DNA of 64,000 nucleotides, taken from positions 62,001 to 126,000 of the forward strand of contig JBAWUJ010000105.1 of NCBI GenBank assembly GCA_037176705.1, in the 5' to 3' direction. This document shows positions 1,006 through 64,000 of this stretch, in pieces (the stretch's first letter is position 1; every line of letters starts with the position of its first letter). The notes beneath the pieces are model-generated. The model saw nothing but the letters and a program-made list of their open reading frames with translations, was not told the origin of the DNA and did no database searches. The stretch is from Molossus alvarezi. Taxonomy: Eukaryota; Chordata; Mammalia; Chiroptera; Molossidae. The position numbers were made by a program, and so were the translations under genes.

Positions 1006-1022
1006 TTTCGTGTGAAGCGGGT
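1006..1022 (+). other. CENP-B box, unit 1
   Basis: The 17 bases TTTCGTGTGAAGCGGGT match the CENP-B box. Known requirement: N-TTCG-NNNN-A-NN-CGGG-N for binding by the CENP-B DNA-binding domain; all nine fixed bases are present. Against the longer primate/mouse consensus YTTCGTTGGAARCGGGA, 14 of 17 agree, with mismatches only at positions 7, 8 and 17, which are not essential. It contains two CpG. Function: binds the centromere protein CENP-B, which supports centromere chromatin assembly. Binding here is inferred from the motif. Confidence 0.9.
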
Positions 1023-1236
1023 ATAGCCCTAGAATCTTTTTCTCAATATTTGGATATTATTTGAAGAAGGTTGTCTATTGGAACACAGTTCTTTGAACAG
1101 GGAGCCACTGAACAGTCCATTGGACACTGCAACCGTACAAAGGTTTCCATTCTGCTCTTGAACTGAATGTTATTCTATTATTCTGCATAGAAAGAACACC
1201 AGTCATGAACACTTTTGACTATGCCTGTGTATTCCC

Positions 1237-1297
1237 ATAGGTTCTTCGGGGAAATAGTCTTGAAACAAGTGAATCCATGACCATTGTTCCAAGACTG
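1237..1297 (+). repeat. Internal degenerate subrepeat, left copy (unit 1)
   Basis: Begins ATAGGTT, then CGGG, AGTC, TG, AACAAG, CCA and CATT in the same order as the segment at 1410-1465, with small gaps. By eye roughly 40 of 55 aligned bases agree. Suggests the long unit contains relics of an older, shorter repeat about 170 bp long. Confidence 0.45.
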
Positions 1298-1409
1298 ACA
1301 CTCCCTCTTTTAAATTGATCCCTTTTTTGTTCTAATGGCTGGAATAAGGGGATTGAGTACTTGTCAGTTATCAAGAAATAGGCTGAATTTGTCACAGGGA
1401 ATTAGAAAG

Positions 1410-1465
1410 ATAGGTTCGGGAGATTCCAGTCATGAACAAGGTACAATTCCAGCATTTCACAATGA
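1410..1465 (+). repeat. Internal degenerate subrepeat, right copy (unit 1)
   Basis: Partner of the segment starting at 1237, lying about 170 bp downstream. It also shares the 13-mer ccagtcatgaaca (1426-1438) with 1199-1211. Confidence 0.45.
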
Positions 1466-1865
1466 TGGAATGCGTTTACTTTGAATTCTCAGGAGAAAAC
1501 AGGTATCTACTCCTTATGCTTTTTGAGGAAATCGGTACAAACAGTGAAATGTATGATGGTTCCTAGAATGACACTGATTCATTCGGTCATAACTTTAAAG
1601 AATGTGTGTAGAACTGAATAGGGTATAGATTTCCATGACCTGAACATTGCCCTAACCAATGTGTTTGATTTCTGCAGCCCAGCCTTTGTTGGATATCAAG
1701 ATGACTCATAGACACTTCCAGGCAAACAACACATATGCAGGGCTAAAAGGTAGTATGTGGAAAGGCTGCCTCATCAACTAGTACAGGTTGACTTTCCTGG
1801 TCACATAGGAAAGAAGGTAGACACCTGCATTTACTTACAACACTGTTTGACACTCCAATGTAAAG

Positions 1866-1887
1866 TATGCCCTGCACACCGGGCATA
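1866..1887. other. Stem-loop, 7-bp stem and 8-base loop (unit 1 copy)
   Basis: TATGCCC at 1866-1872 pairs with GGGCATA at 1881-1887 around the loop tgcacacc. It occurs at the same offset in all complete units except unit 20, where G to A in the right arm (ccggAcat) breaks one pair. Could form a hairpin in single-stranded DNA or satellite RNA; no evidence of function. Confidence 0.5.
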
Positions 1888-1962
1888 GTTAGTGTGTAAG
1901 TAATTGAAATGGATACCCAGGTCCACTGCACAAGTGCATTTTCTCTAGAACACTCCTCTTGT

Positions 1963-3924
1963 TCTCATTCACAGAGATGTTCAATGTGAAAAACCCTTGG
2001 TATTGTCAGTGTCTTCCAATTCATGGATTTACTCCTTGCATGGAGACAACCAATGTTTCAACTACATCACTTTAGATGTGTTCAGTTTCACTGCTTCAAG
2101 AATGCACATATGTGACACCAGTAGTTATCAATCTTTCCATTGATTCAGTCTTGGCCATACGCTGGTTCACTGTTCTGAGTAAGAATCATGTGAAACCAAC
2201 TGCTACAGCAGAAACCAAACTTTTTCCAAGTATCGCCTTCAAAAATAGGCGTCAAGACAATCCAATCTTTGAAACCATGAACAACACAGAACACAAAAAG
2301 GGATAACTTTTGATGCTACACATAAGTGTGCTCTGACCTAGTTGTTCTTTCCATGATATGACTGGATCTCCCTATAAAACGAGGAGAATGTACGTTAAAG
2401 TGTTCATGTTCCTCAAGATCTGTGCATTCACTTAACCCAAATGGAAATATTCATTCATTCCAACAGTTGTTTGACTAGAACATGTTTGTTCACACTTTCC
2501 CTGCAAAGGTACTTAACTTCCCAGGGAAAAACATGCCACTGAGTGAATGTGGCCCCTGGCTCTCACAGAGTTTTGCCCATAGTTCAGTATATCCAAGACT
2601 GCACCAGCAAGTCTTGAGTCTCTTTGTCTGGAACAAGGGAAAGAAACTTACACTGCGAAGTTTCAGTGTGATTCCACCTTTACAAATGGACATTTCTTAA
2701 ACACTTAACCAAAACAACATATGCTTTGAGGATCCTCACGCTCTAGGCTTCATGGAAGTGACTTTGGTGCCACTGAAGTGAAGAGTTCTAACACAGTTCA
2801 TTTGGAATAGGTTTGCTTTGTATACACTCTCCTACAATCAAACTAGAGTGAAAAGTATATCTAAGGACCTATCAAGAGTCAGGTTGCCACATTTCCTTAA
2901 ATCAATACTTTCCACAACTGTACTAAGAACACGTAATCTGAAAAACAGTACAACAGTGGTGGTTCCATTTCGTGTGAAGCGGGTATAGCCCTAGAATCTT
3001 TTTGTCAATATTTGGATATTATTTGAAGAAGGTTGTCTATTGGAACACAGTTCTTTGAACAGGGAGCCACTGAACAGTCCATTGGACACTGCAACCGTAC
3101 AAAGGTTTCCATTCTGCTCTTGAACTGAATGTTATTCTATTATTCTGCACAGAAAGAACACCAGTCATGAACACTTTTGACTATGCCTGTGTATTCCCAT
3201 AGGTTCTTCGGGGAAATAGTCTTGAAACAAGTGAATCCATGACCATTGTTCCAAGACTGACACTCCCTCTTTTAAATTGATCCCTTTTTTGTTCTAATGG
3301 CTGGAATAAGGGGATTGAGTACTTGTCAGTTATCAAGAAATAGGCTGAATTTGTCACAGGGAATTAGAAAGATAGGTTCGGGAGATTCCAGTCATGAACA
3401 AGGTACAATTCCAGCATTTCACAATGATGGAATGCGTTTACTTTGAATTCTCAGGAGAAAACAGGTATCTACTCCTTATGTTTTTTGAGGAAATCGGTAC
3501 AAACAGTGAAATGTATGATGGTTCCTAGAATGACACTGATTCATTCGGTCACAACTTTAAAGAATGTGTGTAGAACTGAATAGGGTATAGATTTCCATGA
3601 CCTGAACATTGCCCTAACCAATGTGTTTGATTTCTGCAGCCCAGCCTTTGTTGGATATCAAGATGACTCATAGACACTTCCAGGCAAACAACACGTATGC
3701 AGGGCTAAAAGGTAGTATGTGGAAAGGCTGCCTCATCAACTAGTACAGGTTGACTTTCCTGGTCACATAGGAAAGAAGGTAGACACCTGCATTTACTTAC
3801 AACACTGTTTGACACTCCAATGTAAAGTATGCCCTGCACACCGGGCATAGTTAGTGTGTAAGTAATTGAAATGGATACCCAGGTCCACTGCACAAGTGCA
3901 TTTTCTCTAGAACACTCCTCTTGT
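1963..3924 (+). repeat. Satellite unit 2
   Basis: Full-length copy with about 12 substitutions relative to unit 1. It has G in aggcGtcaag (also in units 31 and 32) and a private A that turns gacgatcc into gacaatcc, losing a CpG. It shares the rare tttttGtcaat variant (offset about 1042) only with unit 4, part of the two-unit alternation in units 2-5. Confidence 0.97.
2968..2984 (+). other. CENP-B box, unit 2
   Basis: All 17 bases identical to the unit 1 box. Confidence 0.9.
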
Positions 3925-5886
3925 TCTCATTCACAGAGATGTTCAATGTGAAAAACCCTTGGTATTGTCAGTGTCTTCCAATTCATGGATTTACTCCTTG
4001 CATGGAGACAACCAATGTTTCAACTACATCACTTTAGATGTGTTCAGTTTCACTGCTTCAAGAATGCACATATGTGACACCAGTAGTTATCAATCTTTCC
4101 ATTGATTCAGTCTTGGCCATACGCTGGTTCACTGTTCTGAGTAAGAATCATGTGAAACCAACTGCTACAGCAGAAACCAAACTTTTTCCAAGTATCGCCT
4201 TCAAAAATAGGCTTCAAGACGATCCAATCTTTGAAACCATGAACAACACAGAACACAAAAAGGGATAACTTTTGATGCTACACATAAGTGTGCTCTGACC
4301 TAGTTGTTCTTTCCATGATATGACTGGATCTCCCTATAAAACGAGGAGAATGTACGTTAAAGTGTTCATGTTCCTCAAGATCTGTGCATTCACTTAACCC
4401 AAATGGAAATATTCATTCATTCCAACAGTTGTTTGACTAGAACATGTTTGTTCACACTTTCCCTGCAAAGGTACTTAACTTCCCAGGGAAAAACATGCCA
4501 CTGAGTGAATGTGGCCCCTGGCTCTCACAGAGTTTTGCCCATAGTTCAGTATATCCAAGACTGCACCAGCAAGTCTTGAGTCTCTTTGTCTGGAACAAGG
4601 GAAAGAAACTTACACTGCGAAGTTTCAGTGTGATTCCACCTTTACAAATGGACATTTCTTAAACACTTAACCAAAACAACATATGCTTTGAGGATCCTCA
4701 CGCTCTAGGCTTCATGGAAGTGACTTTGGTGCCACTGAAGTGAAGAGTTCTAACACAGTTCATTTGGAATAGGTTTCCTTTGTATACACTCTCCTACAAT
4801 CAAACTAGAGTGAAAAGTATATCTAAGGACCTATCAAGAGTCAGGTTGCCACATTTCCTTAAATCAATACTTTCCACAACTGTACTAAGAACACGTAATC
4901 TGAAAAACAGTACAACAGTGGTGGTTCCATTTCGTGTGAAGCGGGTATAGCCCTAGAATCTTTTTCTCAATATTTGGATATTATTTGAAGAAGGTTGTCT
5001 ATTGGAACACAGTTCTTTGAACAGGGAGCCACTGAACAGTCCATTGGACACTGCAACCGTACAAAGGTTTCCATTCTGCTCTTGAACTGAATGTTATTCT
5101 ATTATTCTGCACAGAAAGAACACCAGTCATGAACACTATTGACTATGCCTGTGTATGCCCATAGGTTCTTCGGGGAAATAGTCTTGAAACAAGTGAATCC
5201 ATGACCATTGTTCCAAGACTGACACTCCCTCTTTTAAATTGATCCCTTTTTTGTTCTAATGGCTGGAATAAGGGGATTGAGTACTTGTCAGTTATCAAGA
5301 AATAGGCTGAATTTGTCACAGGGAATTAGAAAGATAGGTTTGGGAGATTCCAGTCATGAACAAGGTACAATTCCAGCATTTCACAATGATGGAATGCGTT
5401 TACTTTGAATTCTCAGGAGAAAACAGGTATCTACTCCTTATGTTTTTTGAGGAAATCGGTACAAACAGTGAAATGTATGATGGTTCCTAGAATGACACTG
5501 ATTCATTCGGTCACAACTTTAAAGAATGTGTGTAGAACTGAATAGGGTATAGATTTCCATGACCTGAACATTGCCCTAACCAATGTGTTTGATTTCTGCA
5601 GCCCAGCCTTTGTTGGATATCAAGATGACTCATAGACACTTCCAGGCAAACAACACGTATGCAGGGCTAAAAGGTAGTATGTGGAAAGGCTGCCTCATCA
5701 ACTAGTACAGGTTGACTTTCCTGGTCACATAGGAAAGAAGGTAGACACCTGCATTTACTTACAACACTGTTTGACACTCCAATGTAAAGTATGCCCTGCA
5801 CACCGGGCATAGTTAGTGTGTAAGTAATTGAAATGCATACCCAGGTCCACTGCACAAGTGCATTTTCTCTAGAACACTCCTCTTGT
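3925..5886 (+). repeat. Satellite unit 3
   Basis: Full-length copy. It carries tttCcttt near offset 862, shared with units 5, 9, 12, 15 and 17. Private changes are cactAttgac near offset 1213 and taggtTtggg at offset 1417. Near its end it has aaatgCatac (offset 1912), the base otherwise found in units 8, 11, 12 and 14-16. Confidence 0.97.
4930..4946 (+). other. CENP-B box, unit 3
   Basis: All 17 bases identical to the unit 1 box. Confidence 0.9.
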
Positions 5887-7848
5887 TCTCATTCACAGAG
5901 ATGTTCAATGTGAAAAACCCTTGGTATTGTCAGTGTCTTCCAATTCATGGATTTACTCCTTGCATGGAGACAACCAATGTTTCAACTACATCACTTTAGA
6001 TGTGTTCAGTTTCACTGCTTCAAGAATGCACATATGTGACACCAGTAGTTATCAATCTTTCCATTGATTCAGTCTTGGCCATACGCTGGTTCACTGTTCT
6101 GAGTAAGAATCATGTGAAACCAACTGCTACAGCAGAAACCAAACTTTTTCCAAGTATCGCCTTCAAAAATAGGCTTCAAGACGATCCAATCTTTGAAACC
6201 ATGAACAACACAGAACACAAAAAGGGATAACTTTTGATGCTACACATAAGTGTGCTCTGTCCTAGTTGTTCTTTCCATGATATGACTGGATCTCCCTATA
6301 AAACGAGGAGAATGTACGTTAAAGTGTTCATGTTCCTCAAGATCTGTGCATTCACTTAACCCAAATGGAAATATTCATTCATTCCAACAGTTGTTTGACT
6401 AGAACATGTTTGTTCACACTTTCCCTGCAAAGGTACTTAACTTCCCAGGGAAAAACATGCCACTGAGTGAATGTGGCCCCTGGCTCTCACAGAGTTTTGC
6501 CCATAGTTCAGTATATCCAAGACTGCACCAGCAAGTCTTGAGTCTCTTTGTCTGGAACAAGGGAAAGAAACTTACACTGCGAAGTTTCAGTGTGATTCCA
6601 CCTTTACAAATGGACATTTCTTAAACACTTAACCAAAACAACATATGCTTTGAGGATCCTCACGCTCTAGGCTTCATGGAAGTGACTTTGGTGCCACTGA
6701 AGTGAAGAGTTCTAACACAGTTCATTTGGAATAGGTTTGCTTTGTATACACTCTCCTACAATCAAACTAGAGTGAAAAGTATATCTAAGGACCTATCAAG
6801 AGTCAGGTTGCCACATTTCCTTAAATCAATACTTTCCACAACTGTACTAAGAACACGTAATCTGAAAAACAGTACAACAGTGGTGGTTCCATTTCGTGTG
6901 AAGCGGGTATAGCCCTGGAATCTTTTTGTCAATATTTGGATATTATTTGAAGAAGGTTGTCTATTGGAACACAGTTCTTTGAACAGGGAGCCACTGAACA
7001 GTCCATTGGACACTGCAACCGTACAAAGGTTTCCATTCTGCTCTTGAACTGAATGTTATTCTATTATTCTGCACAGAAAGAACACCAGTCATGAACACTT
7101 TTGACTATGCCTGTGTATTCCCATAGGTTCTTCGGGGAAATAGTCTTGAAACAAGTGAATCCATGACCATTGTTCCAAGACTGACACTCCCTCTTTTAAA
7201 TTGATCCCTTTTTTGTTCTAATGGCTGGAATAAGGGGATTGAGTACTTGTCAGTTATCAAGAAATAGGCTGAATTTGTCACAGGGAATTAGAAAGATAGG
7301 TTCGGGAGATTCCAGTCATGAACAAGGTACAATTCCAGCATTTCACAATGATGGAATGCGTTTACTTTGAATTCTCAGGAGAAAACAGGTATCTACTCCT
7401 TATGTTTTTTGAGGAAATCGGTACAAACAGTGAAATGTATGATGGTTCCTAGAATGACACTGATTCATTCGGTCACAACTTTAAAGAATGTGTGTAGAAC
7501 TGAATAGGGTATAGATTTCCATGACCTGAACATTGCCCTAACCAATGTGTTTGATTTCTGCAGCCCAGCCTTTGTTGGATATCAAGATGACTCATAGACA
7601 CTTCCAGGCAAACAACACGTATGCAGGGCTAAAAGGTAGTATGTGGAAAGGCTGCCTCATCAACTAGTACAGGTTGACTTTCCTGGTCACATAGGAAAGA
7701 AGGTAGACACCTGCATTTACTTACAACACTGTTTGACACTCCAATGTAAAGTATGCCCTGCACACCGGGCATAGTTAGTGTGTAAGTAATTGAAATGGAT
7801 ACCCAGGTCCACTGCACAAGTGCATTTTCTCTAGAACACTCCTCTTGT
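5887..7848 (+). repeat. Satellite unit 4
   Basis: Full-length copy. It shares tttttGtcaat with unit 2 and has ccctGgaatc (offset 1031), which removes an in-frame TAG on the complementary-strand reading and lengthens a chance open frame there to 83 codons. T at offset 374 is shared with unit 1. Confidence 0.97.
6892..6908 (+). other. CENP-B box, unit 4
   Basis: Identical 17-mer; the base G eight positions downstream (ccctGgaatc) differs from unit 1. Confidence 0.9.
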
Positions 7849-9810
7849 TCTCATTCACAGAGATGTTCAATGTGAAAAACCCTTGGTATTGTCAGTGTCT
7901 TCCAATTCATGGATTTACTCCTTGCATGGAGACAACCAATGTTTCAACTACATCACTTTAGATGTGTTCAGTTTCACTGCTTCAAGAATGCACATATGTG
8001 ACACCAGTAGTTATCAATCTTTCCATTGATTCAGTCTTGGCCATACGCTGGTTCACTGTTCTGAGTAAGAATCATGTGAAACCAACTGCTACAGCAGAAA
8101 CCAAACTTTTTCCAAGTATCGCCTTCAAAAATAGGCTTCAAGACGATCCAATCTTTGAAACCATGAACAACACAGAACACAAAAAGGGATAACTTTTGAT
8201 GCTACACATAAGTGTGCTCTGACCTAGTTGTTCTTTCCATGATATGACTGGATCTCCCTATAAAACGAGGAGAATGTACGTTAAAGTGTTCATGTTCCTC
8301 AAGATCTGTGCATTCACTTAACCCAAATGGAAATATTCATTCATTCCAACAGTTGTTTGACTAGAACATGTTTGTTCACACTTTCCCTGCAAAGGTACTT
8401 AACTTCCCAGGGAAAAACATGCCACTGAGTGAATGTGGCCCCTGGCTCTCACAGAGTTTTGCCCATAGTTCAGTATATCCAAGACTGCACCAGCAAGTCT
8501 TGAGTCTCTTTGTCTGGAACAAGGGAAAGAAACTTACACTGCGAAGTTTCAGTGTGATTCCACCTTTACAAATGGACATTTCTTAAACACTTAACCAAAA
8601 CAACATATGCTTTGAGGATCCTCACGCTCTAGGCTTCATGGAAGTGACTTTGGTGCCACTGAAGTGAAGAGTTCTAACACAGTTCATTTGGAATAGGTTT
8701 CCTTTGTATACACTCTCCTACAATCAAACTAGAGTGAAAAGTATATCTAAGGACCTATCAAGAGTCAGGTTGCCACATTTCCTTAAATCAATACTTTCCA
8801 CAACTGTACTAAGAACACGTAATCTGAAAAACAGTACAACAGTGGTCGTTCCATTTCGTGTGAAGCGGGTATAGCCCTAGAATCTTTTTCTCAATATTTG
8901 GATATTATTTGAAGAAGGTTGTCTATTGGAACACAGTTCTTTGAACAGGGAGCCACTGAACAGTCCATTGGACACTGCAACCGTACAAAGGTTTCCATTC
9001 TGCTCTTGAACTGAATGTTATTCTATTATTCTGCACAGAAAGAACACCAGTCATGAACACTTTTGACTATGCCTGTGTATTCCCATAGGTTCTTCGGGGA
9101 AATAGTCTTGAAACAAGTGAATCCATGACCATTGTTCCAAGACTGACACTCCCTCTTTTAAATTGATCCCTTTTTTGTTCTAATGGCTGGAATAAGGGGA
9201 TTGAGTACTTGTCAGTTATCAAGAAATAGGCTGAATTTGTCACAGGGAAATAGAAAGATAGGTTCGGGAGATTCCAGTCATGAACAAGGTACAATTCCAG
9301 CATTTCACAATGATGGAATGCGTTTACTTTGAATTCTCAGGAGAAAACAGGTATCTACTCCTTATGTGTTTTGAGGAAATCAGTACAAACAGTGAAATGT
9401 ATGATGGTTCCTAGAATGACACTGATTCATTCGGTCACAACTTTAAAGAATGTGTGTAGAACTGAATAGGGTATAGATTTCCATGACCTGAACATTGCCC
9501 TAACCAATGTGTTTGATTTCTGCAGCCCAGCCTTTGTTGGATATCAAGATGACTCATAGACACTTCCAGGCAAACAACACGTATGCAGGGCTAAAAGGTA
9601 GTATGTGGAAAGGCTGCCTCATCAACTAGTACAGGTTGACTTTCCTGGTCACATAGGAAAGAAGGTAGACACCTGCATTTACTTACAACACTGTTTGACA
9701 CTCCAATGTAAAGTATGCCCTGCACACCGGGCATAGTTAGTGTGTAAGTAATTGAAATGGATACCCAGGTCCACTGCACAAGTGCATTTTCTCTAGAACA
9801 CTCCTCTTGT
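7849..9810 (+). repeat. Satellite unit 5
   Basis: Full-length copy resembling unit 3 in tttCcttt near offset 862. Private changes: agtggtCgttcc just upstream of the CENP-B box, gggaAatag near offset 1400, tatgtGtttt near 1522 and atcAgtac near 1535, the last removing a CpG. Confidence 0.97.
8854..8870 (+). other. CENP-B box, unit 5
   Basis: Identical 17-mer although the flank just upstream has a private change (gtggtCgttcc). Confidence 0.9.
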
Positions 9811-11772
9811 TCTCATTCACAGAGATGTTCAATGTGAAAAACCCTTGGTATTGTCAGTGTCTTCCAATTCATGGATTTACTCCTTGCATGGAGACAACCA
9901 ATGTTTCAACTACATCACTTTAGATGTGTTCAGTTTCACTGCTTCAAGAATGCACATATGTGACACCAGTAGTTATCAATCTTTCCATTGATTCAGTCTT
10001 GGCCATACGCTGGTTCACTGTTCTGAGTAAGAATCATGTGAAACCAACTGCTACAGCAGAAACCAAACTTTTTCCAAGTATCGCCTTCAAAAATAGGCTT
10101 CAAGACGATCCAATCTTTGAAACCATGAACAACACAGAACACAAAAAGGGATAACTTTTGATGCTACACATAAGTGTGCTCTGACCTAGTTGTTCTTTCC
10201 ATGATATGACTGGATCTCCCTATAAAACGAGGAGAATGTACGTTAAAGTGTTCATGTTCCTCAAGATCTGTGCATTCACTTAACCCAAATGGAAATATTC
10301 ATTCATTCCAACAGTTGTTTGACTAGAACATGTTTGTTCACACCTTCCCTGCAAAGGTACTTAATTTCCCAGGGAAAAACATGCCACTGAGTGAATGTGG
10401 CCCCTGGCTCTCACAGAGTTTTGCCCATCGTTCAGTGTATCCAAGACTGCACCAGCAAGTCTTGAGTCTCTTTGTCTGGAACAAGGGAAAGAAACTTACA
10501 CTGCGAAGTTTCAGTGTGATTCCACCTTTACAAATGGACATTTCTTAAACACTTAACCAAAACAACATATGCTTTGAGGATCCTCACGCTCTAGGCTTCA
10601 TGGAAGTGACTTTGGTGCCACTGAAGTGAAGAGTTCTAACACAGTTCATTTGGAATAGGTTTGCTTTGTATACACTCTCCTACAATCAAACTAGAGTGAA
10701 AAGTATATCTAACGACCTATCAAGAGTCAGGTTGCCACATTTCCTTAAATCAATACTTTCCACAACTGTACTAAGAACACGTAATCTGAAAAACAGTACA
10801 ACAGTGGTGGTTCCATTTCGTGTGAAGCGGGTATAGCCCTAGAATCTTTTTCTCAATATTTGGATATTATTTGAAGAAGGTTGTCTATTGGAACACAGTT
10901 CTTTGAACAGGGAGCCACTGAACAGTCCATTGGACACTGCAACCGTACAAAGGTTTCCATTCTACTCTTGAACTGAATGTTATTCTATTATTCTGCACAG
11001 AAAGAACACCAGTCATGAACACTTTTGACTATGCCTGTGTATTCCCATAGGTTCTTCGGGGAAATAGTCTTGAAACAAGTGAATCCATGACCATTGTTCC
11101 AAGACTGACACTCCCTCTTTTAAATTGATCCCTTTTTTGTTCTAATGGCTGGAATAAGGGAATTGAGTACTTGTCAGTTATCAAGAAATAGGCTGAATTT
11201 GTCACAGGGAATTAGAAAGATAGGTTCGGGAGATTCCAGTCATGAACAAGGTACAATTCCAGCATTTCACAATGATGGAATGCGTTTACTTTGAATTCTC
11301 AGGAGAAAACAGGTATCTACTCCTTATGTTTTTTGAGGAAATCGGTACAAACAGTGAAATGTATGATGGTTCCTAGAATGACACTGATTCATTCGGTCAC
11401 AACTTTAAAGAATGTGTGTAGAACTGAATAGGGTATAGATTTCCATGACCTGAACATTGCCCTAACCAATGTGTTTGATTTCTGCAGCCCAGCCTTTGTT
11501 GGATATCAAGATGACTCATAGACACTTCCAGGCAAACAACACGTATACAGGGCTAAAAGGTAGTATGTGGAAAGGCTGCCTCATCAACTAGTACAGGTTG
11601 ACTTTCCTGGTCACATAGGAAAGAAGGTAGACACCTGCATTTACTTACAACACTGTTTGACACTCCAATGTAAAGTATGCCCTGCACACCGGGCATAGTT
11701 AGTGTGTAAGTAATTGAAATGGATACCCAGGTCCACTGCACAAGTGCATTTTCTCTAGAACACTCCTCTTGT
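9811..11772 (+). repeat. Satellite unit 6 (type B-like right half)
   Basis: Full-length copy. It shares two rare variants with unit 9, three units away: A at offset 1154 (ctActc) and A at 1737 (gtatAcag). It also has C at offset 903 (taaCgacc), a type C marker shared with units 7, 10 and 13. Private changes include ttaaTttccc near 556 and aagggAattg near 1341. Confidence 0.97.
10816..10832 (+). other. CENP-B box, unit 6
   Basis: Identical 17-mer. Confidence 0.9.
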
Positions 11773-13734
11773 TCTCATTCACAGAGATGTTCAATGTGAA
11801 AAACCCTTGGTATTGTCAGTGTCTTCCAATTCATGGATTTACTCCTTGCATGGAGACAACCAATGTTTCAACTACATCACTTTAGATGTGTTCAGTTTCA
11901 CTGCTTCAAGAATGCACATATGTGACACCAGTAGTTATCAATCTTTCCATTGATTCAGTCTTGGCCATACGCTGGTTCACTGTTCTGAGTAAGAATCATG
12001 TGAAACCAACTGCTACAGCAGAAACCAAACTTTTTCCAAGTATCGCCTTCAAAAATAGGCTTCAAGACGATCCAATCTTTGAAACCATGAACAACACAGA
12101 ACACAAAAAGGGATAACTTTTGATGCTACACATACGTGTGCTCTGACCTAGTTGTTCTTTCCATGATATGACTGGATCTCCCTATAAAACGAGGAGAATG
12201 TACGTTAAAGTGTTCATGTTCCTCAAGATCTGTGCATTCACTTAACCCAAATGGAAATATTCATTCATTCCAACAGTTGTTTGACTAGAACATGTTTGTT
12301 CACACCTTCCCTGCAAAGGTACTTAACTTCCCAGGGAAACACATGCCACTGAGTGAATGTGGCCCCTGGCTCTCACAGAGTTTTGCCCATAGTTCAGTAT
12401 ATCCAAGACTGCACCAGCAAGTCTTGAGTCTCTTTGTCTGGAACAAGGGAAAGAAACTTACACTGCGAAGTTTCAGTGTGATTCCACCTTTACAAATGGA
12501 CATTTCTTAAACACTTAACCAAAACAACATATGCTTTGAGGATCCTCACGCTCTAGGCTTCATGGAAGTGACTTTGGTGCCACTGAAGTGAAGAGTTCTA
12601 ACACAGTTCATTTGGAATAGGTTTGCTTTGTATACACTCTCCTACAATCAAACTAGAGTGAAAAGTATATCTAACGACCTATCAAGAGTCAGGTTGCCAC
12701 ATTTCCTTAAATCAATACTTTCCACAACTGTACTAAGAACACGTAATCTGAAAAACAGTACAACAGTGGTGGTTCCATTTCGTGTGAAGCGGGTATAGCC
12801 CTAGAATCTTTTTCTCAATATTTGGATATTATTTGAAGAAGGTTGTCTATTGGAAAACAGTTCTTTGAACAGGGAGCCACTGAACAGTCCATTGGACACT
12901 GCAACCGTACAAAGGTTTCCATTCTGCTCTTGAACTGAATGTTATTCTATTATTCTGCACAGAAAGAACACCAGTCATGAACACTTTTGACTATGCCTGT
13001 GTATGCCCATAGGTTCTTCGGGGAAATAATCTTGAAACAAGTGAATCCATGACCATTGTCCCAAGACTGACACTCCCTCTTTTAAATTGATCCCTTTTTT
13101 GTTCTAATGGCTGGAATAAGGGGATTGAGTACTTGTCAGTTATCAAGAAATAGGCTGAATTTGTCACAGGGAATTAGAAAGATAGGTTCGGGAGATTCCA
13201 GTCATGAACAAGGTACAATTCCAGCATTTCACAATGATGGAATGCGTTTACTTTGAATTCTCAGGAGAAAACAGGTATCTACTCCTTATGTTTTTTGAGG
13301 AAATCGGTACAAACAGTGAAATGTATGATGGTTCCTAGAATGACACTGATTCATTCGGTCACAACTTTAAAGAATGTGTGTAGAACTGAATAGGGTATAG
13401 ATTTCCATGACCTGAACATTGCCCTAACCAATGTGTTTGATTTCTGCAGCCCAGCCTTTGTTGGATATCAAGATGACTCATAGACACTTCCAGGCAAACA
13501 ACACGTATGCAGGGCTAAAAGGTAGTATGTGGAAAGGCTGCCTCATCAACTAGTACAGGTTGACTTTCCTGGTCACATAGGAAAGAAGGTAGACACCTGC
13601 ATTTACTTACATCACTGTTTGACACTCCAATGTAAAGTATGCCCTGCACACCGGGCATAGTTAGTGTGTAAGTAATTGAAATGGATACCCAGGTCCACTG
13701 CACAAGTGCATTTTCTCTAGAACACTCCTCTTGT
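11773..13734 (+). repeat. Satellite unit 7 (type C)
   Basis: Full-length copy with type C markers C at offset 903, G at 1233 (gtatGccc) and C at 1288 (cattgtCcc), shared with units 10 and 13. It lacks the offset-285 G of those units. Private changes: catacGtgtg region near 363, gggaaaCacatg near 567, ggaaAacag near 1084, gaaataAtc near 1257 and acaTcactg near 1832. Confidence 0.97.
12778..12794 (+). other. CENP-B box, unit 7
   Basis: Identical 17-mer. Confidence 0.9.
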
Positions 13735-47084: not shown

Positions 47085-47085
47085 T
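47085..47085. other. Start of E-type segment shared with units 28 and 30
   Basis: Reference point for the type E haplotype. Units 25 and 28 carry C at offset 11 and unit 30 carries the common A, so the unit 30 copy does not begin at this boundary. Confidence 0.5.
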
Positions 47086-48089: not shown

Positions 48090-48106
48090 TTTCGTGTGAA
48101 GCGGGT
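48090..48106 (+). other. CENP-B box, unit 25
   Basis: Identical 17-mer. Confidence 0.9.
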
Positions 48107-52970: not shown

Positions 52971-54932
52971 TCTCATTCACCGAGATGTTCAATGTGAAAA
53001 ACCCTTGGTATTGTCAGTGTCTTCCAATTCATGGATTTACTCCTTGCATGGAGACAACCAATGTTTCAACTACATCACTTTAGATGTGTTCAGTTTCACT
53101 GCTTCAAGAATGCACATATGTGACACCAGTAGTTATCAATCTTTCCATTGATTCAGTCTTGGCCATACGCTGGTTCACTGTTCTGAGTAAGAATCATGTG
53201 AAACCAACTGCTACAGCAGAAACCAAACTTTTTCCAAGTATCGCCTTCAAAAATGGGCTTCAAGACGATCCAATCTTTGAAACCATGAACAACACAGAAC
53301 ACAAAAAGGGATAACTTTTGATGCTACACATAAGTGTGCTCTGTCCTAGTTGTTCTTTCCATGATATGACTGGATCTCCCTATAAAACGAGGAGAATGTA
53401 CGTTAAAGTGTTCATGTTCCTCAAGATCTGTGCATTCACTTAACCCAAATGGAAATATTCATTCATTCCCACAGTTGTTTGACTAGAACATGTTTGTTCA
53501 CACTTTCCCTGCAAAGGTACTTAACTTCCCAGGGAAAAACATGCCACTGAGTGAATGTGGTCCCTGGCTCTCACAGAGTTTTGCCCATAGTTCAGTATAT
53601 CCAAGACTGCACCAGCAAGTCTTGTGTCTCTTTGTCTGGAACAAGGGAAAGAAACTTACACTGCGAAGTTTCAGTGTGATTCCACCTTTACAAATGGACA
53701 TTTCTTAAACACTTAACCAAAATAATATATGCTTTGAGGATCCTCACGCTCTAGGCTTCATGGAAGTGACTTTGGTGCCACTGAAGTGAAGAGTTCTAAC
53801 ACAGTTCATTTGGAATAGGTTTGCTTTGTATACACTCTCCTACAATCAAACTAGAGTGAAAAGTATATCTAAGGACCTATCAAGAGTCAGGTTGCCACAT
53901 TTCCTTAAATCAATACTTTCCACCACTGTACTAAGAACACGTAAACTGAAAAACAGTACAACAGTGGTGGTTCCATTTCGTGTGAAGCGGGTATAGCCCT
54001 AGAATCTTTTTCTCAATATTTGGATATTATTTGAAGAAGGTTGTCTATTGGAACACAGTTCTTTGAACAGGGAGCCACTGAACAGTCCATTGGACACTGC
54101 AACCGTACAAAGGTTTCCATTCTGCTCTTGAACTGAATGTTATTCTATTATTCTGCACAGAAAGAACACCAGTCATGAACACTTTTGACTATGCCTGTGT
54201 ATTCCCATAGGTTCTTCGGGGAAATAGTCTTGAAACAAGTGAATCCATGACCATTGTTCCAAGACTGACACTCCCTCTTTTAAATTGATCCTTTTTTTGT
54301 TCTAATGGCTGGAATAAGGGGATTGAGTACTTGTCAGTTATCAAGAAATAGGCTGAATTTGTCACAGGGAATTAGAAAGATAGGTTCGGGAGATTCCAGT
54401 CATGAACAAGGTACAATTCCAGCATTTCACAATGATGGAATGCGTTTACTTTGAATTCTCAGGAGAAAACAGGTATCTACTCCTTATGTTTTTTGAGGAA
54501 ATCGGTACAACCAGTGAAGTGTATGATGGTTCCTAGAATGACACTGATTCATTCGGTCACAACTTTAAAGAATGTGTGTAGAACTTTATAGGGTATAGAT
54601 TTCCATGACCTGAACATTGCCCTAACCAATGTGTTTGATTTCTGCAGCCCAGCCTTTGTTGGACATCAAGATGACTCATAGACACTTCCAGGCAAACAAC
54701 ACGTATGCCGGGCTAAAAGGTAGTATGTGGAAAGGCTGCCTCATCAACTAGTACAGGTTGACTTTCCTGGTCACATAGGAAAGAAGGTAGACACCTGCAT
54801 TTACTTACAACACTGTTTGACACTCCAATGTAAAGTATGCCCTGCACACCGGGCATAGTTAGTGTGTAAGTAATTGAAATGGATACCCAGGTCCACTGCA
54901 CAAGTGCATTTTCTCTAGAACACTCCTCTTGT
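52971..54932 (+). repeat. Satellite unit 28 (type E, second copy)
   Basis: Matches unit 25 throughout, including C at offset 11 (52981). The one difference I find is A at offset 975 (53945, cgtaaActg). Confidence 0.97.
53976..53992 (+). other. CENP-B box, unit 28
   Basis: Identical 17-mer; private A lies 31 bases upstream. Confidence 0.9.
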
Positions 54933-56894
54933 TCTCATTCACAGAGATGTTCAATGTGAAAAACCCTTGGTATTGTCAGTGTCTTCCAATTCATGGATTT
55001 ACTCCTTGCATGGAGACAACCAATGTTTCAACTACATCACTTTAGATGTGTTCAGTTTCACTGCTTCAAGAATGCACATATGTGACACCAGTAGTTATCA
55101 ATCTTTCCATTGATTCAGTCTTGGCCATACGCTGGTTCACTGTTCTGAGTAAGAATCATGTGAAACCAACTGCTACAACAGAAACCAAACTTTTTCCAAG
55201 TATCGCCTTCAAAAATAGGCTTCAAGACGATCCAATCTTTGAAACCATGAACAACACAGAACACAAAAAGGGATAACTTTTGATGCTACACATAAGTGTG
55301 CTCTGTCCTAGTTGTTCTTTCCATGATATGACTGGATCTCCCTATAAAACGAGGAGAATGTACGTTAAAGTGTTCATGTTCCTCAAGATCTGTGCATTCA
55401 CTTAACCCAAATGGAAATATTCATTCATTCCAACAGTTGTTTGACTAGAACATGTTTGTTCACACTTTCCCTGCAAAGGTACTTAACTTCCCAGGGAAAA
55501 ACATGCCACTGAGTGAATGTGGCCCCTGGATCTCACAGAGTTTTGCCCATCGTTCAGTATATCCAAGACTGCACCAGCAAGTCTTGAGTCTCTTTGTCTG
55601 GAACAAGGGAAAGAAACTTACACTGCGAAGTTTCAGTGTGATTCCACCTTTACAAATGGACATTTCTTAAACACTTAACCAAAACAACATATGCTTTGAG
55701 GATCCTCACGCTCTAGGCTTCATGGAAGTGACTTTGGTGCCACTGAAGTGAAGAGTTCTAACACAGTTCATTTGGAATAGGTTTGCTTTGTATACACTCT
55801 CCTACAATCAAACTAGAGTGAAAAGTATATCTAAGGACCTATCAAGAGTCAGGTTGCCACATTTCCTTAAATCAATACTTTCCACCACTGTACTAAGAAC
55901 ACGTAATCTGAAAAACAGTACAACAGTGGTGGTTCCATTTCGTGTGAAGCGGGTATAGCCCTGGAATCTTTTTCTCAATATTTGGATATTATTTGAAGAA
56001 GGTTGTCTATTGGAACACAGTTCTTTGAACAGGGAGCCACTGAACAGGCCATTGGACACTGCAACCGTACAAAGGTTTCCATTCTGCTCTTGAACTGAAT
56101 GTTATTCTATTATTCTGCACAGAAAGAACACCAGTCATGAACACTTTTGACTATGCCTGTGTATTCCCATAGGTTCTTCGGGGAAATAGTCTTGAAACAA
56201 GTGAATCCATGACCATTGTTCCAAGACTGACACTCCCTCTTTTAAATTGATCCCTTTTTTGTTCTAATGGCTGGAATAAGGGGATTGAGTACTTGTCAGT
56301 TATCAAGAAATAGGCTGAATTTGTCACAAGGAATTAGAAAGATAGGTTCGGGAGATTCCAGTCATGAACAAGGTACAATTCCAGCATTTCACAATGATGG
56401 AATGCGTTTACTTTGAATTCTCAGGAGAAAACAGGTATCTACTCCTTATGTTTTTTGAGGAAATCGGTACAAACAGTGAAATGTATGATGGTTCCTAGAA
56501 TGACACTGATTCATTCGGTCACAACTTTAAAGAATGTGTGTAGAACTGAATAGGGTATAGATTTCCATGACCTGAACATTGCCCTAACCAATGTGTTTGA
56601 TTTCTGCAGCCCAGCCTTTGTTGGATATCAAGATGACTCATAGACACTTCCAGGCAAACAACACGTATGCAGGGCTAAAAGGTAGTATGTGGAAAGGCTG
56701 CCTCATCAACTAGTACAGGTTGACTTTCCTGGTCACATAGGAAAGAAGGTAGACACCTGCATTTACTTACAACACTGTTTGACACTCCAATGTAAAGTAT
56801 GCCCTGCACACCGGGCATAGTTAGTGTGTAAGTAATTGAAATGGATACCCAGGTCCACTGCACAAGTGCATTTTCTCTAGAACACTCCTCTTGT
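54933..56894 (+). repeat. Satellite unit 29 (type F, second copy)
   Basis: Matches unit 26 except at offsets 1912-1913, where it has the common ggatac instead of gattac. That switch sits just before the junction with unit 30, where the order of types changes. Confidence 0.97.
55938..55954 (+). other. CENP-B box, unit 29
   Basis: Identical 17-mer. Confidence 0.9.
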
Positions 56895-58856
56895 TCTCAT
56901 TCACAGAGATGTTCAATGTGAAAAACCCTTGGTATTGTCAGTGTCTTCCAATTCATGGATTTACTCCTTGCATGGAGACAACCAATGTTTCAACTACATC
57001 ACTTTAGATGTGTTCAGTTTCACTGCTTCAAGAATGCACATATGTGACACCAGTAGTTATCAATCTTTCCATTGATTCAGTCTTGGCCATACGCTGGTTC
57101 ACTGTTCTGAGTAAGAATCATGTGAAACCAACTGCTACAGCAGAAACCAAACTTTTTCCAAGTATCGCCTTCAAAAATGGGCTTCAAGACGATCCAATCT
57201 TTGAAACCATGAACAACACAGAACACAAAAAGGGATAACTTTTGATGCTACACATAAGTGTGCTCTGTCCTAGTTGTTCTTTCCATGATATGACTGGATC
57301 TCCCTATAAAACGAGGAGAATGTACGTTAAAGTGTTCATGTTCCTCAAGATCTGTGCATTCACTTAACCCAAATGGAAATATTCATTCATTCCCACAGTT
57401 GTTTGACTAGAACATGTTTGTTCACACTTTCCCTGCAAAGGTACTTAACTTCCCAGGGAAAAACATGCCACTGAGTGAATGTGGTCCCTGGCTCTCACAG
57501 AGTTTTGCCCATAGTTCAGTATATCCAAGACTGCACCAGCAAGTCTTGTGTCTCTTTGTCTGGAACAAGGGAAAGAAACTTACACTGCGAAGTTTCAGTG
57601 TGATTCCACCTTTACAAATGGACATTTCTTAAACACTTAACCAAAATAATATATGCTTTGAGGATCCTCACGCTCTAGGCTTCATGGAAGTGACTTTGGT
57701 GCCACTGAAGTGAAGAGTTCTAACACAGTTCATTTGGAATAGGTTTGCTTTGTATACACTCTCCTACAATCAAACTAGAGTGAAAAGTATATCTAAGGAC
57801 CTATCAAGAGTCAGGTTGCCACATTTCCTTAAATCAATACTTTCCACCACTGTACTAAGAACACGTAATCTGAAAAACAGTACAACAGTGGTGGTTCCAT
57901 TTCGTGTGAAGCGGGTATAGCCCTAGAATCTTTTTCTCAATATTTGGATATTATTTGAAGAAGGTTGTCTATTGGAACACAGTTCTTTGAACAGGGAGCC
58001 ACTGAACAGTCCATTGGACACTGCAACCGTACAAAGGTTTCCATTCTGCTCTTGAACTGAATGTTATTCTATTATTCTGCACAGAAAGAACACCAGTCAT
58101 GAACACTTTTGACTATGCCTGTGTATTCCCATAGGTTCTTCGGGGAAATAGTCTTGAAACAAGTGAATCCATGACCATTGTTCCAAGACTGACACTCCCT
58201 CTTTTAAATTGATCCTTTTTTTGTTCTAATGGCTGGAATAAGGGGATTGAGTACTTGTCAGTTATCAAGAAATAGGCTGAATTTGTCACAGGGAATTAGA
58301 AAGATAGGTTCGGGAGATTCCAGTCATGAACAAGGTACAATTCCAGCATTTCACAATGATGGAATGCGTTTACTTTGAATTCTCAGGAGAAAACAGGTAT
58401 CTACTCCTTATGTTTTTTGAGGAAATCGGTACAACCAGTGAAATGTATGATGGTTCCTAGAATGACACTGATTCATTCGGTCACAACTTTAAAGAATGTG
58501 TGTAGAACTGAATAGGGTATAGATTTCCATGACCTGAACATTGCCCTAACCAATGTGTTTGATTTCTGCAGCCCAGCCTTTGTTGGATATCAAGATGACT
58601 CATAGACACTTCCAGGCAAACAACACGTATGCCGGGCTAAAAGGTAGTATGTGGAAAGGCTGCCTCATCAACTAGTACAGGTTGACTTTCCTGGTCACAT
58701 AGGAAAGAAGGTAGACACCTGCATTTACTTACAACACTGTTTGACACTCCAATGTAAAGTATGCCCTGCACACCGGGCATAGTTAGTGTGTAAGTAATTG
58801 AAATGGATACCCAGGTCCACTGCACAAGTGCATTTTCTCTAGAACACTCCTCTTGT
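56895..58856 (+). repeat. Satellite unit 30 (type E, mosaic extra copy)
   Basis: Type E in the middle (aatGggctt, cattccCacag, ggTccctgg, aaaaTaaTatatg, T7 tract, acaaCcagtg, atgcCggg) but with common bases at offset 11 and at gaaAtgtat, gaactGAatag and ggaTatc near offsets 1547-1693. It follows a type F unit where a type D unit would be expected. Confidence 0.97.
57900..57916 (+). other. CENP-B box, unit 30
   Basis: Identical 17-mer. Confidence 0.9.
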
Positions 58857-60817
58857 TCTCATTCACAGAGATGTTCAATGTGAAAAACCCTTGGTATTGT
58901 CAGTGTCTTCCAATTCATGGATTTACTCCTTGCATGGAGACAACCAATGTTTCAACTACATCACTTTAGATGTGTTCAGTTTCACTGCTTCAAAAATGCA
59001 CATATGTGACACCAGTAGTTATCAATCTTTCCATTGATTCAGTCTTGGCCATACGCTGGTTCACTGTTCTGAGTAAGAATCATGTGAAACCAACTGCTAC
59101 AACAGAAACCAAACTTTTTCCAAGTATCGCCTTCAAAAATAGGCGTCAAGACGATCCAATCTTTGAAACCATGAACAACACAGAACACAAAAAGGGATAA
59201 CTTTTGATGCTACACATAAGTGTGCTCTGTCCTAGTTGTTCTTTCCATGATATGACTGGATCTCCCTATAAAACGAGGAGAATGTACGTTAAAGTGTTCA
59301 TGTTCCTCAAGATCTGTGCATTCACTTAACCCAAATGGAAATATTCATTCATTCCAACAGTTGTTTGACTAGAACATGTTTGTTCACACTTTCCCTGCAA
59401 AGGTACTTAACTTCCCAGGGAAAAACATGCCACTGAGTGAATGTGGCCCCTGGCTCTCACAGAGTTTTGCCCATCGTTCAGTGTATCCAAGACTGCACCA
59501 GCAAGTCTTGAGTCTCTTTGTCTGGAACAAGGGAAAGAAACTTACACTGCGAAGTTTCAGTGTGATTCCACCTTTACAAATGGACATTTCTTAAACACTT
59601 AACCAAAACAACATATGCTTTGAGGATCCTCACGCTCTAGGCTTCATGGAAGTGACTTTGGTGCCACTGAAGTGAAGAGTTCTAACACAGTTCATTTGGA
59701 ATAGGTTTGCTTTGTATACACTCTCCTACAATCAAACTAGAGTGAAAAGTATATCTAAGGACCTATCAAGAGTCAGGTTGCCACATTTCCTTAAATCAAT
59801 ACTTTCCACCACTGTACTAAGAACACGTAATCTGAAAAACAGTACAACAGTGGTGGTTCCATTTCGTGTGAAGCGGGTATAGCCCTGGAATCTTTTTCTC
59901 AATATTTGGATATTATTTGAAGAAGGTTGTCTATTGGAACACAGTTCTTTGAACAGGGAGCCACTGAACAGTCCATTGGACACTGCAACCGTACAAAGGT
60001 TTCCATTCTGCTCTTGAACTGAATGTTATTCTATTATTCTGCACAGAAAGAACACCAGTCATGAACACTTTTGACTATGCCTGTGTATTCCCATAGGTTC
60101 TTCGGGGAAATAGTCTTGAAACAAGTGAATCCATGACCATTGTTCCAAGACTGACACTCCCTCTTTTAAATTGATCCTTTTTTGTTCTAATGGCTGGAAT
60201 TAGGGGATTGAGTACTTGTCAGTTATCAAGAAATAGGCTGAATTTGTCACAGGGAATTAGAAAGATAGGTTCGGGAGATTCCAGTCATGAACAAGGTACA
60301 ATTCCAGCATTTCACAATGATTTAATGCGTTTACTTTGAATTCTCAGGAGAAAACAGGTATCTACTCCTTATGTTTTTTGAGGAAATCTGTACAAACAGT
60401 GAAATGTATGATGGTTCCTAGAATGACACTGATTCATTCGGTCACAACTTTAAAGAATGTGTGTAGAACTGAATAGGGTATAGATTTCCATGACCTGAAC
60501 ATTGCCCTAACCAATGTGTTTGATTTCTGCAGCCCAGCCTTTGTTGGATATCAAGATGACTCATAGACACTTCCAGGCAAACAACACGTATGCAGGGCTA
60601 AAAGGTAGTATGTGGAAAGGCTGCCTCATCAACTAGTACAGGTTGACTTTCCTGGTCACATAGGAAAGAAGGTAGACACCTGCATTTACTTACAACACTG
60701 TTTGACACTCCAATGTAAAGTATGCCCTGCACACCGGGCATAGTTAGTGTGTAAGTAATTGAAATGGATACCCAGGTCCACTGCACAAGTGCATTTTCTC
60801 TAGAACACTCCTCTTGT
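58857..60817 (+). repeat. Satellite unit 31 (pair with unit 32, 1,961 bp)
   Basis: Markers shared only with unit 32: cttcaaAaatg near offset 137, ggaatTagggg near 1338, tgatTTaatg near 1465, atcTgtac near 1535, and loss of one C before the T-run near 60177. Also aggcGtcaag and acaAcag. These make it clearly distinct from unit 30. Confidence 0.97.
59862..59878 (+). other. CENP-B box, unit 31
   Basis: Identical 17-mer. Confidence 0.9.
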
Positions 60818-62778
60818 TCTCATTCACAGAGATGTTCAATGTGAAAAACCCTTGGTATTGTCAGTGTCTTCCAATTCATGGATTTACTCCTTGCATGGAG
60901 ACAACCAATGTTTCAACTACATCACTTTAGATGTGTTCAGTTTCACTGCTTCAAAAATGCACATATGTGACACCAGTAGTTATCAATCTTTCCATTGATT
61001 CAGTCTTGGCCATACGCTGGTTCACTGTTCTGAGTAAGAATCATGTGAAACCAACTGCTACAACAGAAACCAAACTTTTTCCAAGTATCGCCTTCAAAAA
61101 TAGGCGTCAAGACGATCCAATCTTTGAAACCATGAACAACACAGAACACAAAAAGGGATAACTTTTGATGCTACACATAAGTGTGCTCTGTCCTAGTTGT
61201 TCTTTCCATGATATGACTGGATCTCCCTATAAAACGAGGAGAATGTACGTTAAAGTGTTCATGTTCCTCAAGATCTGTGCATTCACTTAACCCAAATGGA
61301 AATATTCATTCATTCCAACAGTTGTTTGACTAGAACATGTTTGTTCACACTTTCCCTGCAAAGGTACTTAACTTCCCAGGGAAAAACATGCCACTGAGTG
61401 AATGTGGCCCCTGGCTCTCACAGAGTTTTGCCCATCGTTCAGTGTATCCAAGACTGCACCAGCAAGTCTTGAGTCTCTTTGTCTGGAACAAGGGAAAGAA
61501 ACTTACACTGCGAAGTTTCAGTGTGATTCCACCTTTACAAATGGACATTTCTTAAACACTTAACCAAAACAACATATGCTTTGAGGATCCTCACGCTCTA
61601 GGCTTCATGGAAGTGACTTTGGTGCCACTGAAGTGAAGAGTTCTAACACAGTTCATTTGGAATAGGTTTGCTTTGTATACACTCTCCTACAATCAAACTA
61701 GAGTGAAAAGTATATCTAAGGACCTATCAAGAGTCAGGTTGCCACATTTCCTTAAATCAATACTTTCCACCACTGTACTAAGAACACGTAATCTGAAAAA
61801 CAGTACAACAGTGGTGGTTCCATTTCGTGTGAAGCGGGTATAGCCCTGGAATCTTTTTCTCAATATTTGGATATTATTTGAAGAAGGTTGTCTATTGGAA
61901 CACAGTTCTTTGAACAGGGAGCCACTGAACAGTCCATTGGACACTGCAACCGTACAAAGGTTTCCATTCTGCTCTTGAACTGAATGTTATTCTATTATTC
62001 TGCACAGAAAGAACACCAGTCATGAACACTTTTGACTATGCCTGTGTATTCCCATAGGTTCTTCGGGGAAATAGTCTTGAAACAAGTGAATCCATGACCA
62101 TTGTTCCAAGACTGACACTCCCTCTTTTAAATTGATCCTTTTTTGTTCTAATGGCTGGAATTAGGGGATTGAGTACTTGTCAGTTATCAAGAAATAGGCT
62201 GAATTTGTCACAGGGAATTAGAAAGATAGGTTCGGGAGATTCCAGTCATGAACAAGGTACAATTCCAGCATTTCACAATGATTTAATGCGTTTACTTTGA
62301 ATTCTCAGGAGAAAACAGGTATCTACTCCTTATGTTTTTTGAGGAAATCTGTACAAACAGTGAAATGTATGATGGTTCCTAGAATGACACTGATTCATTC
62401 GGTCACAACTTTAAAGAATGTGTGTAGAACTGAATAGGGTATAGATTTCCATGACCTGAACATTGCCCTAACCAATGTGTTTGATTTCTGCAGCCCAGCC
62501 TTTGTTGGATATCAAGATGACTCATAGACACTTCCAGGCAAACAACACGTATGCAGGGCTAAAAGGTAGTATGTGGAAAGGCTGCCTCATCAACTAGTAC
62601 AGGTTGACTTTCCTGGTCACATAGGAAAGAAGGTAGACACCTGCATTTACTTACAACACTGTTTGACACTCCAATGTAAAGTATGCCCTGCACACCGGGC
62701 ATAGTTAGTGTGTAAGTAATTGAAATGGATACCCAGGTCCACTACACAAGTGCATTTTTTCTAGAACACTCCTCTTGT
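60818..62778 (+). repeat. Satellite unit 32 (pair with unit 31, 1,961 bp)
   Basis: Same as unit 31, including the lost C (near 62138), except for two changes close to its right end: actAcacaag and tgcattttTtctag (62744 and about 62759). The first breaks the small TGCAC/GTGCA inverted repeat. Confidence 0.97.
61823..61839 (+). other. CENP-B box, unit 32
   Basis: Identical 17-mer. Confidence 0.9.
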
Positions 62779-64000
62779 TCTCATTCACAGAGATGTTCAA
62801 TGTGAAAAACCCTTGGTATTGTCAGTGTCTTCCAATTCATGGATTTACTCCTTGCATGGAGACAACCAATGTTTCAACTACATCACTTTAGATGTGTTCA
62901 ATTTCACTGCTTCAAGAATGCACATATGTGACACCAGTAGTTATCAATCTTTCCATTGATTCAGTCTTGGCCATACGCTGGTTCACGGTTCTGAGTAAGA
63001 ATCATGTGAAACCAACTGCTACAGCAGAAACCAAACTTTTTCCAAGTATCGCCTTCAAAAATAGGCTTCAAGACGATCCAATCTTTGAAACCATGAACAA
63101 CACAGAACACAAAAAGGGATAACTTTTGATGCTACACATAAGTGTGCTCTGACCTAGTTGTTCTTTCCATGATATGACTGGATCTCCCTATAAAACGAGG
63201 AGAATGTACGTTAAAGTGTTCATGTTCCTCAAGATCTGTGCATTCACTTAACCCAAATGGAAATATTCATTCATTCCAACAGTTGTTTGACTAGAACATG
63301 TTTGTTCACACTTTCCCTGCAAAGGTACTTAACTTCCCAGGGAAAAACATGCCACTGAGTGAATGTGGCCCCTGGCTCTCACAGAGTTTTTCCCATCGTT
63401 CAGTATATCCAAGACTGCACCAGCAAGTCTTGAGTCTCTTTGTCTGGAACAAGGGAAAGAAACTTACACTGCGAAGTTTCAGTGTGATTCCACCTTTACA
63501 AATGGACATTTCTTAAACACTTAACCAAAACAACATATGCTTTGAGGATCCTCACGCTCTAGGCTTCATGGGAGTGACTTTGGTGCCACTGAAGTGAAGA
63601 GTTCTAACACAGTTCATTTGGAATAGGTTTGCTTTGTATACACTCTCCTACAATCAAACTAGAGTGAAAAGTATATCTAAGGACCTATCAAGAGTCAGGT
63701 TGCCACATTTCCTTAAATCAATACTTTCCACAACTGTACTAAGAACACGTAATCTGAAAAACAGTACAACAGTGGTGGTTCCATTTCGTGTGAAGCGGGT
63801 ATAGCCCTGGAATCTTTTTCTCAATATTTGGATATTATTTGAAGAAGGTTGTCTATTGGAACACAGTTCTTTGAACAGGGAGCCACTGAACAGGCCATTG
63901 GACACTGCAACCGTACAAAGGTTTCCATTCTGCTCTTGAACTGAATGTTATTCTATTATTCTGCACAGAAAGAACACCAGTCATGAACACTTTTGACTAT
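62779..64000 (+). repeat. Satellite unit 33 (partial, 1,222 bp, cut by window end)
   Basis: Left 62% of a unit. It shares catgGgagtg near offset 791 and agGccat near 1117 with units 21 and 22, but not their cttttGcc or caaAtc. Private: gttcaAttt near 118, tcacGgttctg near 211 and ttttTcccatc near 612. Confidence 0.96.
63784..63800 (+). other. CENP-B box, unit 33
   Basis: Identical 17-mer in the partial last unit. Confidence 0.9.

Follow-up and report, generated by a model that had tools for sequence, protein, structure and literature searches.

A long-unit satellite of the bat Molossus alvarezi with a sparse CENP-B-type box, probably (peri)centromeric

Background

Apes, some New World monkeys and mice have been reported to have functional CENP-B boxes (for the primates, see PMC4904201), and in its broad sense the box is defined by a nine-base core, NTTCGNNNNANNCGGGN (PMC4904201). 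Here we describe a satellite of the bat Molossus alvarezi whose 1,962-bp unit carries a 17-bp motif of this type, TTTCGTGTGAAGCGGGT. The satellite fills a stretch of 64,000 nucleotides (GenBank assembly GCA_037176705.1, contig JBAWUJ010000105.1, positions 62,001 to 126,000), called the window below. In our numbering this is G000:C102:62001-126000, and it belongs to a contig of 216,963 bp (C102) in an assembly of 2,504,496,771 bases and 285 contigs. Judging from sequence, the repeat is probably a (peri)centromeric satellite with a usable CENP-B box, spaced at one per ~2 kb.

The alpha satellites of apes and New World monkeys, as presented in PMC4904201, share the same nine-base core and the tandem arrangement, and in them boxes can arise at different positions of the unit. 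Their units measure ~171 or 340 bp with approximately one box per 340 bp, whereas the bat unit has 1,962 bp without detectable internal repeats and one box per ~2 kb. A preliminary description of the window, made from its letters alone, had called the box far sparser than in alpha satellite, and these figures bear it out.

SATCHO2 of two-toed sloths (2,292 bp; PMC7644632) is likewise a mammalian satellite located at centromeres, with a unit of ~2 kb. However, ~140 bp interrupt its CENP-B-like motif, and its copies are ~24% apart, as against a 9/9 core and 0.84% in our window. In TMAsat of manatees (~684 bp; PMC8421680), also a centromeric satellite with long units, the CENP-B-like motif has five to six of the nine core bases rather than all nine. 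Satellites of phyllostomid bats have units of up to 1,681 bp, and several lie in (peri)centromeric heterochromatin; the cited passages report no CENP-B box for them, and they are set beside the 1,962-bp satellite by description only (PMC12467311). To judge by its title, a paper of 2005 reported a bat satellite with a CENP-B motif (cited in PMC13003292), and its likeness to the present repeat, again by title alone, is the presence of a CENP-B motif in a bat satellite.

The 17-mer TTTCGTGTGAAGCGGGT was not found in the open-licence PMC literature, which is no evidence that it is unpublished. Among the listed open-licence PMC titles and abstracts on ~2-kb centromeric satellites, mammalian CENP-B boxes and bats, none names the 1,962-bp satellite. 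The repeat belongs to a satellite type that is already known, although its motif is cleaner and more thinly spread.

A CENP-B-type box in every unit of the window

The core pattern NTTCGNNNNANNCGGGN matches the window 33 times on the forward strand and never on the reverse strand, and every match is one identical 17-mer, TTTCGTGTGAAGCGGGT. This motif has all nine core bases (9/9) and 14 of the 17 bases of the canonical box, YTTCGTTGGAARCGGGA, from which it departs at positions 7, 8 and 17. It is thus a CENP-B box in the broad sense in all 33 copies, and an incomplete match to the canonical form. The preliminary description had reported the same motif, nine core bases and 14/17 agreement in all 33 units, and a pattern match gives the same count.

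That description had also put the chance occurrence of a core at about 0.015 per unit with equal base use, and lower in CpG-poor DNA. Both statements hold on recomputation. For both strands together, 0.015 cores per unit are expected with equal bases and 0.0067 with the composition of the unit. A first-order Markov model predicts 4.6e-4 cores per unit, and dinucleotide-preserving shuffles (n = 20,000) gave 3e-4, with no shuffle containing the core together with at least 14/17 agreement to the consensus.

Because the array is homogenised, the 33 boxes amount to one independent observation. Only 115 of the 1,962 columns vary in the window, and over 32 units 35% of all the 17-mers show no variation. 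The invariance of the box, previously counted as mild extra evidence, therefore carries no weight. No core was present in 36.6 kb of non-satellite DNA sampled from the genome (telomere repeats included), a sample too small to serve as a test.

The same genome encodes CENP-B. Its dimerisation domain (PF09026) was found once in the assembly, on contig C12, at 192.5 bits (E = 2.9e-54), above the curated cut-off and inside a stop-free frame of 751 amino acids. A source genome lacking CENP-B, which the preliminary description had named as a finding that would speak against its reading, is not what was found. Because the intact core is rare, the CENP-B gene is present and the array is centromere-like, we think it likely, on balance, that CENP-B binds the TTTCGTGTGAAGCGGGT box in this genome. 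The box, the array, its layering in the sampled pieces, its place at the end of a contig whose other end is telomeric, and the CENP-B gene were all observed directly; binding in vivo, coincidence with CENP-A chromatin and a benefit to segregation are inferred.

Structure of the unit and the array

Run with a long period limit, Tandem Repeats Finder (TRF) treats the window as a single array (Table 1). Among 32 complete units measured from box to box, 27 have 1,962 bp, four have 1,961 bp and one has 1,960 bp. Their mean pairwise difference is 0.84%, in keeping with the divergence of less than 1% estimated earlier. The unit has no direct self-match at E<1, and its sole self-complementary stretch is a weak one of 34 bp (E = 0.02).

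Higher-order repeats of the alpha type, built from diverged ~171-bp monomers, are not what the array contains; there are only local blocks of three or four whole 1,962-bp units. On the 117.2-Mb contig C11, positions 393,748-417,298 (sampled pieces L020-L022) hold three copies of a 4-unit block of 7,850 bp, which lie 0-4 columns apart. The nascent higher-order blocks thus differ in size, with three units in the window (Table 1) and four on C11. Window positions 1-1962 differ from three C11 copies at 7 of 1,962 bases.

The observed/expected ratio of CpG in the unit is 0.23 and that of TG/CA is 1.4, and CAG/CTG is not depleted, a profile that fits vertebrate rather than plant methylation. Dyad symmetry, a sign of CENP-B-independent centromeres, is not enriched; at arm lengths of 5-8, between 10 and 38 of 60 shuffles reached the observed count. 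Periodicity of AA/TT/TA/AT at the nucleosome scale is not significant against mononucleotide shuffles (P = 0.25).

Table 1. Coordinates of the satellite array, its CENP-B-type boxes and its block copies in the window
Feature	Position	Strand	Basis or details
Tandem array of 1,962-bp satellite, whole window	1..64000	+	TRF; one array, period 1,962, 32.6 copies, 99% matches
First CENP-B-type box, TTTCGTGTGAAGCGGGT	1006..1022	+	9/9 core, 14/17 consensus
Last (33rd) CENP-B-type box	63784..63800	+	Pattern match
All 33 boxes, 17 bp each	1006..63800	+	Starts 1006, 2968, 4930, 6892, 8854, 10816, 12778, 14740, 16702, 18664, 20626, 22588, 24550, 26512, 28473, 30435, 32395, 34357, 36319, 38281, 40243, 42205, 44167, 46128, 48090, 50052, 52014, 53976, 55938, 57900, 59862, 61823, 63784
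Period-3 block copies (~5,886 bp), units 6-14	10816..28472	+	Column differences: units 7/10/13, 1-5; 8/11/14, 2-5; 6/9, 4; 9/12, 6
3-unit block present twice, units 23-28	44167..55937	+	Column differences: units 25/28, 0; 24/27, 1; 23/26, 4

Genomic location: centromere or flanking heterochromatin

The location of the satellite was read from sampled pieces of contigs and is not a genome-wide map. On C102 the satellite occupies all three other sampled places (10 kb each). Contig C11 begins inside the satellite, which covers 97-100% of each of the 16 pieces of 10 kb taken from its first 1.01 Mb, in a single orientation. Samples of 700 bp farther along C11 contain it at 1.15, 1.3, 1.5 and 2.5 Mb and lack it at 2.0, 3.0 and 4.0 Mb, and the far end of the contig consists of TTAGGG repeats. 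On C9 (3.9 Mb) the satellite takes up the first 937 bases, with other DNA in the remainder of the first 4 kb; it occurs again at 1.0 Mb and is absent at 2.5 Mb, and the contig ends in a telomere. When the starts of 50 contigs were read, 14 had the satellite within the first 450 bp, seven had telomere repeats and five were all N.

A long homogeneous tandem array is present in the window, in the C102 samples and in the C11 pieces up to 440 kb, with 98.6-99.7% identity to the consensus. Along C11 itself, identity with the window consensus falls from 98.6-99.6% in the pieces up to 440 kb to 96.8% at 450 kb, and from 500 kb it stays at 95-96%. Centromeres are known to have a young zone that amplifies locally, with older layers on the side of the arm, and the young-to-old order on C11 resembles such a layered centromere flank. 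The satellite is probably a homogeneous array of megabase size at the non-telomeric end of this 117-Mb contig.

Several observations weigh against the reading as a (peri)centromeric satellite with a usable box, and the satellite may not be present at all centromeres. Among 17 contigs of more than 50 Mb whose starts were read, only C11 begins in the satellite (three of the 17 are all N). None of the nine far ends read from contigs of this size has it, and eight of them are telomeric. Both ends of four contigs (C10, C12, C14 and C16) are made of telomere repeats; their centromeres are therefore internal and outside the sampled parts. In an assembly-wide DNA search, C11 stood alone among the matches listed, with 3 of 1,048 candidates scored. 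In addition, the N-terminal side of the CENP-B frame on C12, the DNA-binding part, is partly N.

One alternative, which we consider somewhat unlikely, is that the satellite lies in heterochromatin (pericentromeric, on a short arm or elsewhere) beside a centromere built from a different repeat, where CENP-B would serve heterochromatin and not the kinetochore. It overlaps with the reading that we favour, which covers flank and core alike. The persistence of the satellite at 2.5 Mb on C11, interrupted by other DNA, agrees with a flank, as does the finding that three chromosome-scale contigs begin in a different, GC-rich repeat bearing 5S ribosomal RNA (rRNA). Furthermore, the cited parts of two studies report that the context decides whether CENP-B boxes promote chromatin with CENP-A or heterochromatin with HP1/H3K9me3 (PMC9105310, PMC7438015). 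However, the most homogenised and youngest part of the array, with its recent block copies, is what would be expected of an active core.

Fate of the box beyond the window

Outside the window, the full core is present in 70 of 71 young units, in 5/5 intermediate units and in 25 of 28 old ones. The exact 17-mer of the box is kept in 24 of the 28 old units (0.857), and the mean over all 17-mers of the unit is 0.48.

A second alternative, which we regard as unlikely, is that the satellite is (peri)centromeric but its box is a chance motif of the founder unit, copied passively and of no meaningful use to CENP-B. The retention data speak for this alternative. In the old layer, 30.5% of the 17-mers of the unit are kept at least as well as the box, or 55% when the spaced nine-base template is used; the young layer gives 32% and 35%. 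Three old units have lost the core, two by a change of CGGG to CAGG and one by a change of TTCG to TTCA, and every one of these changes is a CpG transition, as for decay of methylated DNA. The box thus has no excess conservation in old layers, its invariance in the window is to be expected, and a single box in 1,962 bp is a low density. Against this alternative, only 3-5e-4 full cores per unit are expected at its dinucleotide make-up, 0 of 20,000 shuffles reached the core with 14/17 agreement, and the genome encodes CENP-B.

Because box retention is unremarkable among the 17-mers of the unit, selection on the box is not supported. These data neither support nor exclude function, since a box used only in a young core would decay passively in the old flanks.

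The preliminary description had argued for a functional or recent centromeric satellite, and the results support it in part. In favour of that claim are the CENP-B gene, the homogeneous, layered array at the non-telomeric end of C11 and the retention of the core far beyond the window; a stronger form of it has against it that the box is no better kept than much of the unit in the older layers, and that the CENP-B frame is partly N on the side of its DNA-binding domain.

Origin of the box and nature of the unit

CENP-B descends from transposases of the pogo/Tigger type, and the box might accordingly be the end of such a DNA transposon captured in the unit. We find this very improbable: there is no second, inverted box (on the minus strand, the best match lies over the box itself, with 6/9 core bases), and the unit has no direct repeat and only the one weak self-complementary stretch noted above. 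Just as little credence is due to a macrosatellite or transcribed gene array unrelated to the centromere, which the ~2-kb unit length would suit, given that window positions 1-4500 contain no open reading frame (ORF) of more than 76 amino acids, positions 1-6000 have no Rfam match, the unit is CpG-poor rather than CpG-rich, and the satellite recurs in samples spread across 2.5 Mb of C11.

Substitution spectrum

Variants of the satellite in the window comprise 47 transitions and 69 transversions. The ratio of transitions to transversions is 130:236 in young units and 152:229 in old units, and the differences that are fixed in the old layer give 27:42; these counts come from C11 and C102 pieces (L011-L024) and from old-layer pieces (L026-L029, L071-L075 and others). 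The usual mammalian ratio is ~2. Four apparent pairs of interspersed repeats from the same genome, which share members and are not independent, give 176:108 (68:54, 40:29, 29:15 and 39:10). The other 22 non-satellite pairs, mostly of the GC-rich 5S-bearing repeats, give 56:69, and for this reason the scarcity of transitions may be shared by the tandem repeats of this genome rather than special to the 1,962-bp satellite. Adjacent double substitutions are not in excess (7 seen, 6.7 expected). One tentative reading of the near absence of a transition bias is that the arrays are copied by an error-prone process.

Other repeats and database matches

The GC-rich repeat that opens several contigs is 76% GC and contains 5S rRNA (RF00001). 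It was seen at C7:1-800 (L037), C15:1-800 (L044), C30:1-400 (L084) and C31:1-400 (L085); C7, C15 and C30 are chromosome-scale and C31 is smaller, and a sample from C250 (L103) is similar to the same repeat. It would be unusual to find a repeat with 5S rRNA at the ends of several chromosomes. Another short tandem repeat, AT-rich and with a motif like AGTGTTCCATGGAAGAAACTACTT, opens an 841-kb contig (C21:1-800, L050). At the end of the satellite-bearing contig C8, a 700-bp sample (L062) looks like retroelement sequence. Two non-satellite samples (L033 and L057) resemble the VES short interspersed element of bats and its A-rich tail, which would point to a bat.

The unit has no match among plasmids and phages, the 30-mer around the box has none among viral contigs, and no relative of the unit was confirmed among GTDB genomes. 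One viral contig (L001) had a 38% match to a spurious 76-amino-acid ORF of the satellite; at the DNA level there are only scattered stretches of 11-41 bp (best E = 0.04), and we attribute the match to chance. Two JGI 'hypothetical proteins', P0001 (61/64 identical) and P0002 (87% over 62 amino acids), correspond to spurious ORFs of the satellite, and for both the longest contig has 1,712 bp. One of the three differences of P0001 also occurs in 6 of 32 window ORFs. These entries appear to be satellite DNA in metagenome data that was annotated as genes. A third ORF has no match.

Conclusions

We propose that local block duplication, over and over, would have expanded a unit of 1,962 bp, in which no internal subrepeats are detectable, into long arrays. 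Their newest and most homogeneous part would lie at the assembly break, with older, more diverged layers toward the chromosome arm. The CENP-B of this genome would bind the box approximately once per ten or so nucleosomes, and its binding may help to hold CENP-A/CENP-C chromatin or the neighbouring heterochromatin in place. The box would have spread mainly through homogenisation of the array, with no sign of selection keeping the box itself.

More tentatively, at least one chromosome could have the young 1,962-bp array as its CENP-A core. The array would then be a natural low-density CENP-B centromere that works with one box per ~2 kb, a density several-fold below that of human alpha satellite. 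Young and old layers, along with a few core-less units, lie adjacent on one chromosome. In a mammal whose ~2-kb unit has a 9/9 core, the part of CENP-B in CENP-A/CENP-C loading and in centromere drive could be tested in a natural low-density setting. If the array is indeed a low-density CENP-B centromere, it would be a ready-made test of the minimum number of boxes needed for a CENP-B role.

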